Below, piece by piece: positions 52,630-63,809 of a stretch of DNA of 64,000 nucleotides. Under the pieces are notes generated by a model. It searched no databases, was not told the origin of the DNA, and was given only the letters and a program-made list of their open reading frames with translations. Every line of letters starts with the position of its first letter. The first letter of the stretch is position 1. The position numbers and the translations under genes are program-made. Source of the stretch: Solibacillus silvestris (GTDB lineage Bacteria > Bacillota > Bacilli > Bacillales_A > Planococcaceae); NCBI GenBank assembly GCA_001586195.1, contig CP014609.1:2694501-2758500 (forward strand). The letters run 5' to 3'.

Positions 52630-53085
52630 ATGGATCGAAATTTTATCATTCAAATAACATCGGAAAGTTTGAAACTTATCCGAACGGAAAATAATTACAC
52701 GCAAGATAAAATGGCCGAAATTTTAGGCATTTCGAAAAAGACGCTCGTACAGATCGAGAAAGAGCGTACTTATGCAAACTGGACAACGACGATTGCGATC
52801 TGTGCCCTCTTCCGTCATAGCGAAACATTACAAAACCGTATTGGCGGCGACCCGATGGAAGTCATTGAACTTACCGCACATAATGTCATCATTACCCCAC
52901 GTGAAAAAACAATGGGCGGTTATGTTTGGTGGAAGAACATCGACGAATTTAAACACCACCGACTTCAGCAAAATCTTTTAAGCAAGCATTACCGCATTTT
53001 AGATGACGAAAATTATCGAATCATTAGTACGTTTGATGAAGATGTCGTAATGGAAAAATGGCAAGCAATAAAATCTATTGTTTAA
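52630..53085 (+). CDS. XRE-family transcriptional regulator
   Basis: 151 residues. N-terminal helix-turn-helix (about 10-65: SLKLIRTENNYTQDKMAEILGISKKTLVQIEKERTYANW). The C-terminal half (about 80-150) has no recognisable ligand domain, but repeats of WW/HH aromatic residues. GAGGTG precedes the ATG. The gene follows the DUF2339 gene by 116 bp and shares an upstream palindrome with it, so it probably regulates itself and that gene. Confidence 0.82.
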   Translation: MDRNFIIQITSESLKLIRTENNYTQDKMAEILGISKKTLVQIEKERTYANWTTTIAICALFRHSETLQNRIGGDPMEVIELTAHNVIITPREKTMGGYVWWKNIDEFKHHRLQQNLLSKHYRILDDENYRIISTFDEDVVMEKWQAIKSIV

Positions 53086-56620: not shown

Positions 56621-59320
56621 ATGAATAAAAAACGTAAATGGGGCATTGGCTTCAAAATAACGAGTGGGTATATTATTCTCATAATATGTTTAATCGTTTC
56701 GGCGCTTGTCTTAAATAACCAAATAACAAGTTTACAATCAGAACGAAACGGCGTCATTAAATATGATTCCCAAATGCGCATGATGTCAAATAATCTAGAA
56801 CGTCAAATTCTTAATATGGAATCCTCCTTACAACGTTATTTAATTACAGATGACGAAACTCATCTTGATAAATTTAATGAAGAACTCGCAACATGGGAAG
56901 CTTCTTATGAAGAACTAAGCACAATTGTACAGGACTTTTCAAGTGGCCAAGAGCAGTTGGAAGTGATACACAGCGGTATCGAAGATTGGATCAATAATAT
57001 TGGACAACCTTTATTGAACGCGATACTTGCTAATAATAATGAAGAAATACTTTCGACGTTTGATGGAATGCAAAGCAGTGTGGCAATCAGTGATTTACAG
57101 CAAAAGTTCACTGCATTCCGTACTTTTGAAACAGACGCAATTCAAGTAAAAGTTGCGGAGCTTAATGACCAAAATACGGCGTTAACATATAGCCTTTTTG
57201 GAATTTTAACATTAATCGCGACGGCTACAATTATCATCTTCACAATTATTTCTCGTAATATCGCAGGGTCGATTAACGAAGTAACCGATGCTATCCAAGA
57301 TATGAATGCATCAGACGGGAAAGTACGGAAGCGAATTACTGCTAAGACGAACGATGAAGTGAAAGATCTCGTACTGGCAACAAATTCACTTCTAACCACA
57401 TTGGAGAACCGTCAATGGTTCCAAACAAACTTGGCCGAGGTTGTAACAGCCTACCAAGGTGTCGATACACTCGATGAATTAGGTGAAGTACTGCTGAACT
57501 CGTTGACGACACGTACACATTCGGTATATGGCGCATTTTATATTCAAGATATCCGCAATAAAAACAAATTCAATAAGATTGCTGCCTTTGCGGAAACGGG
57601 CGATAATGTCGGACGTGAAAGTTTTGAAGTTGGACAAGGCTTCATTGGACAGAGTGTGAAGGAAAAACGGATTTTAAGCTATGATAATAAAGATAATAGC
57701 TTCCACTACTTAGAAACAGCACTTGGTAATATTCCAATTTCAAATGGTATTATTGTGCCAGTATTTTTCGGGCAGGAAGTCGTAGCTGTTTTTGAATTAG
57801 CTTCACTAAAACCATATAGCCAACTGCATCGTGACCTAATTAAAGAAGTCGTTGTACATTTAGGCGTAACGATTAACAGCATCATCGGTCGTATGGAAGT
57901 CATTCGTCTTTTAAATGAATCACAGGCGATGACGGAAGAATTGCAAGTTCAGTCAGAAGAGCTACAAACACAATCTGAAGAACTGAAAATGCAAACAGAA
58001 GAACTGACAACAATTAATGAACGTTTAGAAGAACGTACACGTGACGCGGAACAGAAAACACATGAGCTGGAAAAAGTACAGGTTGAGCTGAGACAAAGTG
58101 CAGAACAGCTTCGCCAAAGTTCGAATTACAAATCCGAGTTCCTGGCGAATATGTCGCATGAATTGCGAACACCGCTTAACAGTATTTTAATCTTGTCTGA
58201 AATGCTCGCGGAAAACCATGAAAACCATCTATCTGATGATGAGCTCGAATATGCAAAAGTCATCCATGATTCAGGTGAAGATTTACTGAACCTGATTAAT
58301 GACATTCTCGACTTATCAAAAGTGGAAGCCGGAAAAATGGATTTATGGTTCAGAGAGATGGATGTATATGAAATACCACAGCATATTCAAAATTTATTTA
58401 TGCCGATAGCCAATCAAAAAGGTCTGGAATTATCGGTGGATGTCGCAAATGATCTTGCGGAAATCTTCCATACCGATGTGAAACGATTCCATCAAGTATT
58501 AAATAACCTGCTTTCCAATGCGTTGAAGTTTACAGAGGAAGGTTCGGTAACAGTGAAAGTGGATCGAGCACGTATTACACCGGCCATGAGACAGTTAAGC
58601 GACACATGGATTACGGTGAGTGTGACAGATACCGGTATCGGTATTCCGAAAAACAAGCAAAATATTGTATTTGAGTCGTTCCAGCAAGCGGACGGTGCTA
58701 CTGTTCGTAAATATGGCGGAACGGGATTAGGCTTATCAATCTGCCGTGAAGTAACAAAACTTCTTGGCGGCTGGATTACTTTATCAAGTACTGAAGGTCA
58801 AGGTAGTACATTTACTGTTTACTTGCCAAGCTTACCTGATGGAAATGCTGCCCAAACGAACATTGCTGTACAGGAGGCTGTTTATACAGATGCTGCTCCG
58901 GCAATGGGTGTATCGAAGTCAATATTTGATGAAAAGCATATTTTGATTGTTGATGATGATTACCGTAATATTTACGCATTGCGCCAGGCATTGGAACATA
59001 AAGGTGTTCATATTCTAGAGGCATCAAACGGCGTGGAATGTCTGAACATTTTACAGACGGCGACACGTGTTGATGCTGTATTGATGGATATTATGATGCC
59101 TGAAATGGACGGATATGAAACAATGGAGCGTATCCGCAAAGATTTACAATTACATGAGCTGCCGATTATTGCATTAACAGCAAAAGCGATGAAGCAAGAC
59201 CAAGATCGTGCATTTGAAGCAGGGGCTTCCGATTATATTAGTAAGCCTTTAAACTTGGAACAACTATTCTCCGTACTAACGGTATGGCTCACAAGTGGGG
59301 AACGTTTACGAAATGTATAG
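56621..59320 (+). CDS. rsbK: Hybrid sensor histidine kinase/response regulator, RsbK-like
   Basis: 899 residues: TM1 (about 13-31), CHASE3-like extracytoplasmic domain (35-175), TM2 (180-202), HAMP (200-255), GAF (275-420), coiled coil of LQVQSEELQTQSEELKMQTEEL heptads (430-490), HisKA with His513 (FLANMSHELRTPLN), HATPase (600-740; DTGIGIP, GTGLGLSI) and a receiver with Asp823 (VLMDIMMPEMDG). It matches B. cereus RsbK, which phosphorylates the response regulator RsbY to release sigma-B. The next gene, overlapping by 8 bp, is the methyltransferase RsbM. A CHASE3/HAMP/GAF sensor suggests it reads several inputs. Rhodopsin- or MCP-like partners are not near. Confidence 0.87.
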   Translation: MNKKRKWGIGFKITSGYIILIICLIVSALVLNNQITSLQSERNGVIKYDSQMRMMSNNLERQILNMESSLQRYLITDDETHLDKFNEELATWEASYEELSTIVQDFSSGQEQLEVIHSGIEDWINNIGQPLLNAILANNNEEILSTFDGMQSSVAISDLQQKFTAFRTFETDAIQVKVAELNDQNTALTYSLFGILTLIATATIIIFTIISRNIAGSINEVTDAIQDMNASDGKVRKRITAKTNDEVKDLVLATNSLLTTLENRQWFQTNLAEVVTAYQGVDTLDELGEVLLNSLTTRTHSVYGAFYIQDIRNKNKFNKIAAFAETGDNVGRESFEVGQGFIGQSVKEKRILSYDNKDNSFHYLETALGNIPISNGIIVPVFFGQEVVAVFELASLKPYSQLHRDLIKEVVVHLGVTINSIIGRMEVIRLLNESQAMTEELQVQSEELQTQSEELKMQTEELTTINERLEERTRDAEQKTHELEKVQVELRQSAEQLRQSSNYKSEFLANMSHELRTPLNSILILSEMLAENHENHLSDDELEYAKVIHDSGEDLLNLINDILDLSKVEAGKMDLWFREMDVYEIPQHIQNLFMPIANQKGLELSVDVANDLAEIFHTDVKRFHQVLNNLLSNALKFTEEGSVTVKVDRARITPAMRQLSDTWITVSVTDTGIGIPKNKQNIVFESFQQADGATVRKYGGTGLGLSICREVTKLLGGWITLSSTEGQGSTFTVYLPSLPDGNAAQTNIAVQEAVYTDAAPAMGVSKSIFDEKHILIVDDDYRNIYALRQALEHKGVHILEASNGVECLNILQTATRVDAVLMDIMMPEMDGYETMERIRKDLQLHELPIIALTAKAMKQDQDRAFEAGASDYISKPLNLEQLFSVLTVWLTSGERLRNV

Positions 59321-60128
59321 AAAGAAGTTAGAAGTCCGCTTATTATTGGAAGCGGTATACTCATTATCAGGATTTGATTTCCGAAAGTATAATCAACAAT
59401 CAATATTACGACGGATAGAACATCGGATGCGGATTAACAATTTTTCATCAATATCACAATTAACCGAATCGATTATTTACGATAAAGAGTTACTAAAAGT
59501 ATTACTGAATGATTTCTCGATTAATGTGACAGAAATGTTCCGGGACCCCTCTTTCTTTAGGGCGTTCCGGGAAGAAATCGTTCCTAAGTTGAAGCAGCTT
59601 GATAAAATCCGGGTATGGCATGCAGGCTGCGCAACGGGTGAAGAAGTTTATTCCATGGCCATTCTGCTGCAGGAGGAAGGCTTGCTGGACCGCACGATGA
59701 TGTATGCGACTGACATGAATGAAGATGTGTTGGAAAAAGCACAGCTTGGGGCCTTCCCTCTTCATAAAATGCAAGCCTATACGAAAAATTATATTTTAGC
59801 AGGCGGAAGAGAAAGCTTTTCCCAGTATTATAAAACGGATGACAGCTTTGCCTCTTTTCATCCATACTTAAGCGAAAACATCATGTTTGCCCAGCATAAT
59901 CTGGCAACGGATAAATCGTTTCAGGAATTTGATATTATCATTTGCCGTAATGTGCTCATCTATTTTACACCGGATCTGCAGCATGAAGTACACCATCTCT
60001 TTTACGATAGCTTAGCAATAAACGGATATTTGGGTTTAGGCGATAAAGAAACATTGCAATTTACGCCGCTCGTTTCCAAATACCGTACCATTAACGCAAC
60101 AGAGCGAATCTATCAAAAGAGGTTGTAG
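59313..60128 (+). CDS. rsbM: CheR-type methyltransferase, RsbM-like
   Basis: 271 residues from ATG 59313. An N-terminal helical CheR domain precedes the SAM-binding domain with IRVWHAGCATGEEVYSMAI and FDIIICRNVLIYFTPDL, both diagnostic for CheR. Normal CheR proteins methylate chemoreceptors, but none is present; the B. cereus homologue RsbM methylates RsbK and dampens sigma-B activity. The 8-bp overlap with the kinase gene and the location next to rsbY support this role. The stop is followed by a terminator. Confidence 0.87.
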   Translation: MYRKKLEVRLLLEAVYSLSGFDFRKYNQQSILRRIEHRMRINNFSSISQLTESIIYDKELLKVLLNDFSINVTEMFRDPSFFRAFREEIVPKLKQLDKIRVWHAGCATGEEVYSMAILLQEEGLLDRTMMYATDMNEDVLEKAQLGAFPLHKMQAYTKNYILAGGRESFSQYYKTDDSFASFHPYLSENIMFAQHNLATDKSFQEFDIIICRNVLIYFTPDLQHEVHHLFYDSLAINGYLGLGDKETLQFTPLVSKYRTINATERIYQKRL

Positions 60129-60287: not shown

Positions 60288-61424
60288 TTAACTATTAGCG
60301 CGCAATAATAATACACACATATCATCCGGCTGATTATGTTGCAGTTCACCCTTCAATAAGTAGTCAATCGGTGAAATGTCCGTCGACCAGTGTCTACTCG
60401 CAATTTTACATAGCTCTTTTTCAGATTCCAGATCACACGGACCCATTGCTTCCAGAACACCATCTGTAAAGAGGACAATTTGGATAGAAGAATTATATGG
60501 TATAACTGCTTTTTCAATTTTGATATCTTCCACAAATCCTACCGCATAGCTCGTCGACGTAATCGGTACTGTCTTTTCCCCGTCTACTAGTGCATATCCT
60601 TTCGGATGCCCTGCATTTACGTATTCCACGGTCTTTTGCTTCGTATCGATAATAAAATACACACCAGTGAAATAGTACAATATATTTTCTTTTTCATTTT
60701 GCAGTAAATTCATATAACGATTCAATTCTGAAATAACACGCTTAGGGTCTGTCAGCTTCTTAATTGCCTCACGCAAAACAGATGAAATATACATACAAAC
60801 AAGCGATGCGGACACACCATGCCCCATCATATCCAATAACATGACAGCATAGCGATCTTCATCAAGCTTGTCCCAATAGTACAAGTCTCCGGCCAAATTC
60901 GATGAAGGTAAATAAGAAGCCGTAATCGAGATATCCGGTTCATGAACAGGCGGACTTAATAGACTTTGTTGGACACGGGCTGCCAGATCCAACTCACTTT
61001 GAATAATCTTTTCCTGATTTGTATGCCAGTCCAGTTCTGATTTCAACCGTTTCCCTACACGTATACGGGCTAATAATTCTATTCGATTAATAGGTTTCGT
61101 TATGTAATCAATGCCGCCAACGTCCAAGGCTTCCGACAGCTTCGACTTATCTTCAAGAGCGGTAACGAAAATCACCTGGATATCTTTCCATTGTGGATTT
61201 TGTTTTAATATACGACAAGCTTCAATTCCATCCATCTCCGGCATCATAACATCCAATAAAATAACATTAACGTCATAGCACTTAGGGGCATTGGATGGAT
61301 CTAGGTAGTCAAACATTTCTTTTGCAGATTGTACGGAAACAAACTTCTCATAACCATCACTTTTCAATATTTTTTCAATAACAAAGAGGTTAACTTGGTT
61401 ATCGTCTACAACAAGAATGGTCAT
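60288..61424 (-). CDS. rsbY: Response regulator with PP2C (SpoIIE-type) phosphatase domain, RsbY-like
   Basis: 378 residues. N-terminal receiver with Asp58 (VILLDVMMPEMDG) and acidic pair VVDDNQ, a connector helix (about 120-160), then a C-terminal PP2C phosphatase (about 170-378; DRYAVMLLDMMGHGVSASLVCMYIS, YVNAGHPKGYAL, VLFTDGVLEAMG). This is the RsbY layout: when phosphorylated it dephosphorylates RsbV, which then frees sigma-B from RsbW. It faces rsbK-rsbM, its presumed kinase and modifier. Neither rsbV, rsbW nor sigB lies in the window. A sigma-B-like promoter (61681-61707, minus) about 250 bp upstream would create positive feedback. Confidence 0.88.
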   Translation of the reverse strand: MTILVVDDNQVNLFVIEKILKSDGYEKFVSVQSAKEMFDYLDPSNAPKCYDVNVILLDVMMPEMDGIEACRILKQNPQWKDIQVIFVTALEDKSKLSEALDVGGIDYITKPINRIELLARIRVGKRLKSELDWHTNQEKIIQSELDLAARVQQSLLSPPVHEPDISITASYLPSSNLAGDLYYWDKLDEDRYAVMLLDMMGHGVSASLVCMYISSVLREAIKKLTDPKRVISELNRYMNLLQNEKENILYYFTGVYFIIDTKQKTVEYVNAGHPKGYALVDGEKTVPITSTSYAVGFVEDIKIEKAVIPYNSSIQIVLFTDGVLEAMGPCDLESEKELCKIASRHWSTDISPIDYLLKGELQHNQPDDMCVLLLRANS

Positions 61425-61679
61425 TACATCAACTTCTCTCTACTTTTTTAGATAAAGCATAATTCATTGCCCGTTACACCTAATTATACAGAAAACGACA
61501 GGTAAATGAAATGAAGAGGCTTTTTTGTCGATATTTCAGTCTATAAGTCTCATTAACTTTGTACTATGTATAATATTAAGTAAACGATAGGCTTGTTCTG
61601 AAAGCTTCTACCTGTCTCTTTTTCTGCATGAACGAACAGTACTTTATACCGAACAATTTATATAATTATCCTCATATAT

Positions 61680-61707
61680 GTTTCCCACAAAAGAGAGATG
61701 GGTAAAC
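61680..61707. promoter_or_regulatory. Overlapping divergent sigma-B-like promoters (near-palindrome)
   Basis: Plus strand: GTTTCC (61680-61685), 14-base spacer, GGGTAA (61700-61705), toward the yebE-like gene. Minus strand: GTTTAC (61702-61707), 15-base spacer, GGGAAA (61681-61686), toward rsbY. Both fit GTTTAA-N12-15-GGGWAW. The same bases serve as -35 of one and -10 of the other. Confidence 0.65.
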
Positions 61708-61778
61708 ATATAAGTTATGTTTTTTTTGAGAAATATCGCATAAAGTATTCTTTAAAGGGAACATAGGAAAAGGATAGG

Positions 61779-61865
61779 ATGAATAATATTTTGGTTCATG
61801 CCTCTCCATATAATCTTATCTATTGCATTTACAAGAGTACCCATATTATGATGAGCATAATTTAA
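61779..61865 (+). other. Possible 28-codon ORF downstream of the sigma-B-like promoter
   Basis: ATG 61779 to TAA 61863-61865 encodes 28 residues (MNNILVHASPYNLIYCIYKS...) with AAGGATAGG directly upstream. It could be a leader peptide of the yebE-like gene 18 bp downstream, or chance. Confidence 0.25.
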
Positions 61866-61883
61866 AGAAAAGGATTCGATTTG

Positions 61884-62411
61884 ATGAAAGAAATTTTGCT
61901 TATTCTATTATTACAACTGCTCTATGTTCCTTTATTTACTCTGCGGACAATTTTTTTAGTTAAAAATATTACAACGCTCGCATCACTGATCGGAATTGTT
62001 GAAATGCTCATCTATGTGTTTGGTCTGTCTCTTGTTTTCAGCGGCGATCAAGGTTTTCTTGCAATGGTCGTGTATGCAGTCGGGTTTGGTCTAGGGATCA
62101 TTATCGGGACGCGCATCGAGCAAAAGCTTGCGATTGGCTATATATATGTAACGATTAATACACAAATCCGCAACGAAGAGCTGATACAAGTTATGCGAAA
62201 TGAAGGGTTTGCGGTAACGACATACGTTGGTGAAGGCCGGGATAGTCAACGATACAAATACGAAATTTTAACGAAACGGAATCGTGAAAAGGAACTATTT
62301 ATGCTTGTTCAGCATCATGAGCCGTCAGCCTTTATAATTTCTTATGAACCGAAGTCGTTTAAAGGTGGTTTCTTAGTCAAACGAATGAAGCAACATAAGA
62401 AGCATAAATAA
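61884..62411 (+). CDS. DUF2179/DUF5698 membrane protein (UPF0316, YebE-like)
   Basis: 175 residues: three hydrophobic N-terminal segments (about 1-80; LRTIFLVKNITTLASLIGIVEMLIYVFGLSLVF) with GFGLGIIIGTRIEQKLAIGYIYV, then a soluble DUF2179 domain (about 95-155; AVTTYVGEGRDSQRYKYEILTKRNRE). It resembles B. subtilis YebE. DUF2179 may bind nucleotides; function unknown. The ATG at 61884 follows AAGGA at 9 bases. A sigma-B-like promoter lies ~180 bp upstream. Confidence 0.85.
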   Translation: MKEILLILLLQLLYVPLFTLRTIFLVKNITTLASLIGIVEMLIYVFGLSLVFSGDQGFLAMVVYAVGFGLGIIIGTRIEQKLAIGYIYVTINTQIRNEELIQVMRNEGFAVTTYVGEGRDSQRYKYEILTKRNREKELFMLVQHHEPSAFIISYEPKSFKGGFLVKRMKQHKKHK

Positions 62412-63424: not shown

Positions 63425-63569
63425 CTGCCATTCCTCCAATATTCATGCTTATGCTTTTACACAGAATTTTTCAACTTTAAAAATTATACTTTCATCATAC
63501 ATTAATTCATATAAAATTAGTATGATTTATTATCGTGTAATTAATAAATTTTAGGTTTAAAATAGTAAA

Positions 63570-63809
63570 GAGGGTGGGACATAACCCAAAAATGCCATTT
63601 TTCTCTTAGAGAAAAATGGCATTTTTTTTGCAGAGCGTAAAAATTGATTTCCATTCCGGGACGCTTTCCGCGGGCGTGGCCTGAGCCTGTAGTCTCAGGC
63701 GTCACGCTTTTCCCGCAGGAGTCGCCCTCCATTCCAATCAATTTTATAAAACATCCGCTTCTTAATAAGGTTTTTCTCCTTAGTTTATGAAATTTCTACT
63801 TCTGTCCCA
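63570..63809 (-). repeat. Intergenic repeat family, copy 3 (inverted, best preserved)
   Basis: Inverse of copies 1 and 2. It has both outer termini (GAGGGTGGGACATAACC and GGGACAGAAGTAGAAATTTC read on the minus strand), the core with the GCCTGAG/CTCAGGC inverted repeat, and the 18-bp hairpin (63588-63605 with 63609-63626, loop TTA). It lacks the insert of copy 2. It occupies most of the gap between the RimK-like gene and the GGDEF gene. Confidence 0.9.
63588..63626. terminator. Terminator-like hairpin in repeat copy 3
   Basis: Perfect 18-bp stem with loop TTA, identical in sequence to that in copy 2. It probably ends the GGDEF transcript entering from the right edge. Confidence 0.75.

Follow-up and report, generated by a model that had tools for sequence, protein, structure and literature searches.

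We analysed a 64,000-nt stretch of the Solibacillus silvestris genome (contig CP014609.1; hereafter the window), in which an rsbY-like phosphatase gene and a DUF5698/DUF2179 gene of yebE-like type are divergently arranged. The gap between the two genes spans 459 nt and contains an imperfect palindrome with one sigma-B-like promoter match on each strand. We take YebE to be a DUF2179 protein and refer to the second gene by that domain. The features of the locus are as follows.

56621–59320, plus strand: rsbK-like hybrid kinase gene (CHASE3, GAF, HisKA, HATPase and receiver domains)
59295–60128, plus strand: rsbM-like CheR-type methyltransferase gene
60288–61424, minus strand: rsbY-like gene (response-regulator receiver and SpoIIE-type PP2C phosphatase)
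61483–61488, minus strand: TATAAT, a likely sigma-A -10 element for rsbY, with no good -35 element seen
61675–61712, no strand: extended imperfect palindrome (arms 61675–61686 and 61701–61712)
61680–61705, plus strand: predicted sigma-B-like promoter towards the DUF2179 gene, GTTTCC-N14-GGGTAA, predicted start at about 61712
61681–61707, minus strand: predicted sigma-B-like promoter towards rsbY, GTTTAC-N15-GGGAAA, predicted start at about 61674
61822–61852, plus strand: TTGCA...TATGAT, by our own reading a likely sigma-A promoter for the DUF2179 gene
61884–62411, plus strand: DUF5698/DUF2179 (yebE-like) gene

The core of the palindrome, at 61680–61707, reads GTTTCCCACAAAAGAGAGATGGGTAAAC. As an earlier note on this DNA had claimed, these 28 bp form an imperfect palindrome that reads GTTT and GGGWAW in both directions, with spacers of 14 and 15 nt. 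The -10 element on either strand overlaps the -35 element of the opposite strand, which agrees with the further claim that each -10 is the complement of the other promoter's -35 region; the core thus comprises two full predicted promoters on opposite strands with interleaved boxes. The term 'face-to-face' used for them does not fit, however: it normally denotes convergent promoters, whereas transcripts from a palindrome between rsbY (minus strand) and DUF2179 (plus strand) would diverge, and the two promoters are better described as divergent and fully overlapping. In the extended form, an inverted-repeat finder gives arms of 12 nt each with 92% complementarity.

The genes to the left of the palindrome resemble a known sigma-B input module. 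The receiver-PP2C phosphatase gene adjoins genes for a CheR-type methyltransferase and a hybrid kinase, an RsbKMY assignment that is made from domains and gene order. As described in parts of the B. cereus literature, RsbK, RsbM and RsbY control SigB there, with the phosphatase pathway running through RsbV and RsbW (PMC9912610, PMC12848376, PMC3231935). The kinase, methyltransferase and phosphatase genes are adjacent in both organisms; in contrast to the B. cereus trio, which lies in the sigB cluster, the trio here is separated from sigB by about 0.64 Mb, and its rsbY gene and a DUF2179 gene point away from each other.

The genome also encodes sigma-B itself. The sigB profile TIGR02941 scores 411.9 bits against a cut-off of 315. 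Of 20 genomes tested, 19 exceed this cut-off, and within the genus 15 of 16 do so, this one included; the sole exception in the genus is G032. Adjoining sigB in this genome are rsbW (over its cut-off), an anti-sigma antagonist in the rsbV position (which passes a superfamily cut-off), a SpoIIE-type phosphatase in the rsbU position and an ATPase that we read as rsbT-like. Five SpoIIE-type phosphatase domains occur in the genome, so RsbY is not the sole possible input. At locus L082 (4342–7392), the sigB operon comprises rsbT-like, rsbU-like, rsbV-like, rsbW and sigB genes; among ORFs of at least 90 amino acids, none of rsbR or rsbS size immediately precedes the rsbT-like gene, and stressosome-type input may therefore be partial.

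The sigB operon provides a local yardstick for promoter form. GTTT-N15/16-GGGWAW occurs at 15 of 19 sigB loci (all except L035, L036, L048 and L050), 720–849 nt upstream of the sigB match, and in this genome the motif has the rsbU-like gene on one side and the rsbV-like gene on the other. By its sequence, this predicted operon promoter shares the form of the promoters in the palindrome. Bacillales SigB promoters, as given in part of a published account, include an rsbV type, GTTTAA-N14-GGGTAT, and have spacers from N12 to N17 (PMC9847131). Like them, the palindrome has a GTTT -35 and a GGGWAW -10 separated by a spacer of 12–17 nt, here on both strands; unlike them, it interleaves two such promoters on opposite strands, and its sigma-B dependence is predicted. 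The published consensus, KTTTW, has W at the fifth -35 base. This base is W on the minus strand only; the plus strand has C, which counts against sigma-B activity in both directions. A consensus match does not prove activity, since in the same account, as far as it describes the near-consensus B. subtilis PygaO (GTTTAT-N14-GGGAAT), that promoter showed no clear SigB induction (PMC9847131).

To assess chance occurrence, we made 20,000 dinucleotide-shuffled versions of the 459-nt gap and scored GTTT-N15-17-GGGWAW on either strand. Any match appeared in 0.985% of the shuffles, both strands matched in 0.005%, and an overlapping pair arose in a single shuffle of the 20,000; these figures are guides rather than a clean p-value, the motif having been picked after it was seen. 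The rarity of the overlapping pair makes chance a poor explanation. The bare consensus gave 155 matches in the genome against 136 for a reversed control, a difference so slight that we dropped it as evidence. The motif alone is weak evidence, and the case rests on position, pairing and conservation. A search for further overlapping pairs, covering the GTTT(N)CCC...GGGWAAAC form only, found one match in each of the six genus genomes that carry the palindrome, always between rsbY and the DUF2179 gene, and one in the other ten genomes of the genus (in G032), whereas the reversed control gave 2 across all 16. That the palindrome is a chance sequence, or an RNA hairpin or terminator with no promoter role, is very improbable: genome-wide consensus matches scarcely exceed the control, and any inverted repeat could form a hairpin, but the shuffles and the conservation described below argue against this explanation, and the palindrome region matched no Rfam family at E values up to 1, nor did a scan of 61300–62000 turn up any terminator-like site.

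Conservation in the genus follows the gene pair in part. rsbY is present in 12 of the 16 genomes, 8 of which have it divergent from the DUF2179 gene. The conservation proposed as a check on the earlier note holds for 6 of these 8 and fails for the other two, the sister species G048 and G013, in which the gene pair is present with a shorter gap and no palindrome. The six carriers form one clade in the RsbY tree (support 99/99), and the palindrome was either gained in that clade or lost in the other. Pairwise intergenic identity among the carriers is 78.6–98.9%. Against this background, 50 of the 55 columns from 61665 are invariant, compared with a median of 36 among column windows; the invariant runs extend over 61665–61691 and 61700–61719, whereas 4 of the 10 columns at the palindrome centre (61689–61698) vary. 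The rsbY leader (61422–61476), with 51 of 55 columns invariant, is as conserved as the palindrome block. rsbY is patchy in the genus, being missing from G114, G120, G073 and G032; of these four genomes, all but G032 have a sigB match above the cut-off.

The invariant runs reach beyond the promoter boxes, and the symmetry, too, runs past the boxes into ATAT flanks that have no counterpart at the sigB operon promoters and that appear, from the sequence, to exceed what sigma-B needs. Both features would suit an operator for a dimeric DNA-binding protein controlling both genes, with the likeness to sigma-B promoters either secondary or an added layer; because sigma-B leaves the flanks unexplained, such a protein retains some probability, albeit a low one. 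The palindrome is a single copy in each of the six genomes, with none elsewhere in them, which argues against an operator. Moreover, none of the immediate neighbours that we identified encodes a transcription factor, and the nearest candidate, by our own reading, is a helix-turn-helix-like gene at 52630–53085. A GTDB-wide scan with the extended palindrome, from which genomes close to the window may be missing, returned 43 stretches from many phyla against about 30 estimated by chance, and we rejected a wider operator family on that basis. The one match of the 43 that we inspected, L163 from Bacillales, lies inside an ion-channel-like reading frame. In two metagenome-assembled genomes, one of Cyclobacteriaceae and one of Evtepia, the pattern recurs in several contigs (L137, L147, L149, L164 and L165; L154, L158 and L167), and these matches may belong to repeats peculiar to those genomes and unrelated to the palindrome.

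We collected 400-nt regions upstream of rsbY from 70 genomes and kept 68, dropping L127 and L134 before counting (a start not at the fetched edge and a split gene). A perfect match facing rsbY occurs in 16 of these 68 mutually related loci, against a shuffle mean of 0.395 and a maximum of 2 in 200, and is missing in the other 52. The 16 matches fall in four clades: the genus itself (6 of 12), g11 (6 of 6), g14 (3 of 25) and g17 (1 of 1). On the opposite strand of the 68 regions there are only 6 matches, all of them the palindromes themselves. This asymmetry and the off-consensus fifth base of the plus-strand promoter would be expected if only one direction, most likely the one facing rsbY, were a working sigma-B promoter and its mirror match a by-product of the ease with which GTTT can be superimposed on GGGWAW across the two strands. 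We consider this unlikely, although less so than an operator, for three reasons: none of the boxes, in either direction, varies among the six carriers, a different sigma-B-like element is present at the DUF2179 gene in four species, and a B. subtilis study assigns yebE to SigB plus SigA, the combination that, in the part of the study concerned with it, best fits its expression during germination and outgrowth (PMC7824861).

The separate element, GTTAAA-N13-GGGTAT, lies at -108 to -111 in G092, G114, G108 and G120 and has one mismatch (GTTA for GTTT). Across the 14 yebE-like DUF2179 genes of the genus, 6 have the palindrome, 4 have this element and 4 (G013, G048, G032 and G073) have neither. 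Outside the genus, we fetched 19 DUF2179 loci from 41 matching genomes; 1 was too short, and a perfect sigma-B-like match was found at 2 of the 18 scanned, so a sigma-B-like promoter at DUF2179 looks like a genus-level trait. Upstream of the DUF2179 paralogues L192–L199 there was no perfect match. Six of these paralogues (L193, L194 and L196–L199) share TTAGGGTAGAAGTA about 45–50 nt ahead of the start, which is -10-like and stands without a matching GTTT box.

Taken together, these data lead us to favour the view that the palindrome is probably a sigma-B-type bidirectional promoter with interleaved boxes, serving rsbY positive feedback and DUF2179 co-induction. We infer initiation, sigma-B dependence, exclusion and feedback at the palindrome from its sequence and setting. 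The earlier note's proposal of a sigma-B-type promoter in both directions thereby gains indirect support, from the invariant arms, the presence of sigB and a sigB-operon promoter of the same form, the rsbY-facing matches in four clades and the separate DUF2179 element in four species; the two sister species that have the gene pair and lack the palindrome speak against it. In the proposed mechanism, sigma-B RNA polymerase would dock in either orientation and never in both simultaneously, the overlap of the two promoters suggesting that polymerases compete. Leftward firing would yield more rsbY, whose phosphatase product would free more sigma-B via RsbV and RsbW, making rsbY induction by sigma-B a positive feedback. 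By analogy, such autoactivation fits B. cereus, where rsbY is reported, in the section that treats it, to be partly SigB-dependent (PMC9912610). Rightward firing would induce the DUF2179 gene, which encodes a small membrane protein, as a stress gene under shared control.

Sigma-A-like promoters closer to each gene would probably supply basal expression. TATAAT is present on the minus strand at 61483–61488 as the earlier note had it, and TAATTATAC, which covers it, shows no difference among the 8 gene-pair genomes; TATCTATTGCA and TATGATG are likewise kept on the DUF2179 side in these 8. A sigma-70 scan reported neither the TATAAT nor the TTGCA...TATGAT element, its sole match lying inside the DUF2179 gene. 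Transcription might start from the TATAAT only, which the earlier note names as a refuting case; given conserved sigma-A-like -10 boxes nearer both genes, sigma-B-dependent transcription would probably come on top of a basal level. The combination of SigB and SigA that fits yebE expression in the B. subtilis study, as far as its yebE section goes, is the same as we propose for the DUF2179 gene (PMC7824861).

The predicted arrangement can be compared with bidirectional promoters of E. coli, which, in the portion of the report that describes them, have a shared -10 and starts mostly 18, and also 10 or 23, bp apart, and compete only under strong transcription, a competition that lowers noise (PMC12825309). 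Pseudo-symmetric DNA with one promoter-like match per strand is present at the palindrome as well, and two exclusive polymerase orientations and divergent RNAs would be common to both. In contrast to the E. coli promoters, which are of the housekeeping type, the palindrome is of sigma-B type, its -35 overlies its -10 and about 38 bp separate its predicted starts. Because its boxes interleave and no -10 is shared, the palindrome would work like the E. coli type without being a member of it. In a limited search of open-licence literature, where absence is weak evidence, we found no precedent for an overlapping divergent SigB promoter; Streptomyces sigma-8 binds 'bidirectional promoter' probes, whose geometry the relevant passage does not state (PMC5402319). 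Earlier reports already place rsbY (B. cereus) and yebE (B. subtilis) under sigma-B control; what is new here is the interleaved geometry.

If the sigma-B interpretation is correct, bacterial bidirectional promoters would have a second geometry, with -35 over -10 in place of a shared -10, made easy by the boxes of the sigma-B consensus, and the palindrome would sit inside the feedback loop that switches on the general stress response. The interpretation also suggests that rsbY, and a DUF2179 gene, come under sigma-B control repeatedly in the family. A polymerase firing towards DUF2179 cannot fire towards rsbY, so the interleaved promoter might also act as a built-in brake on autoactivation, capping feedback and lowering cell-to-cell noise without an extra regulator; we put this forward tentatively, as a doubtful extension of the model. 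With single-base changes that leave one direction intact, polymerase competition and noise in the feedback could be tested directly.

Elsewhere in the window, 63560–63790 is a repeated element with an inverted repeat; it has 73 matches in the genome, several of them near full length at 96–98% identity.
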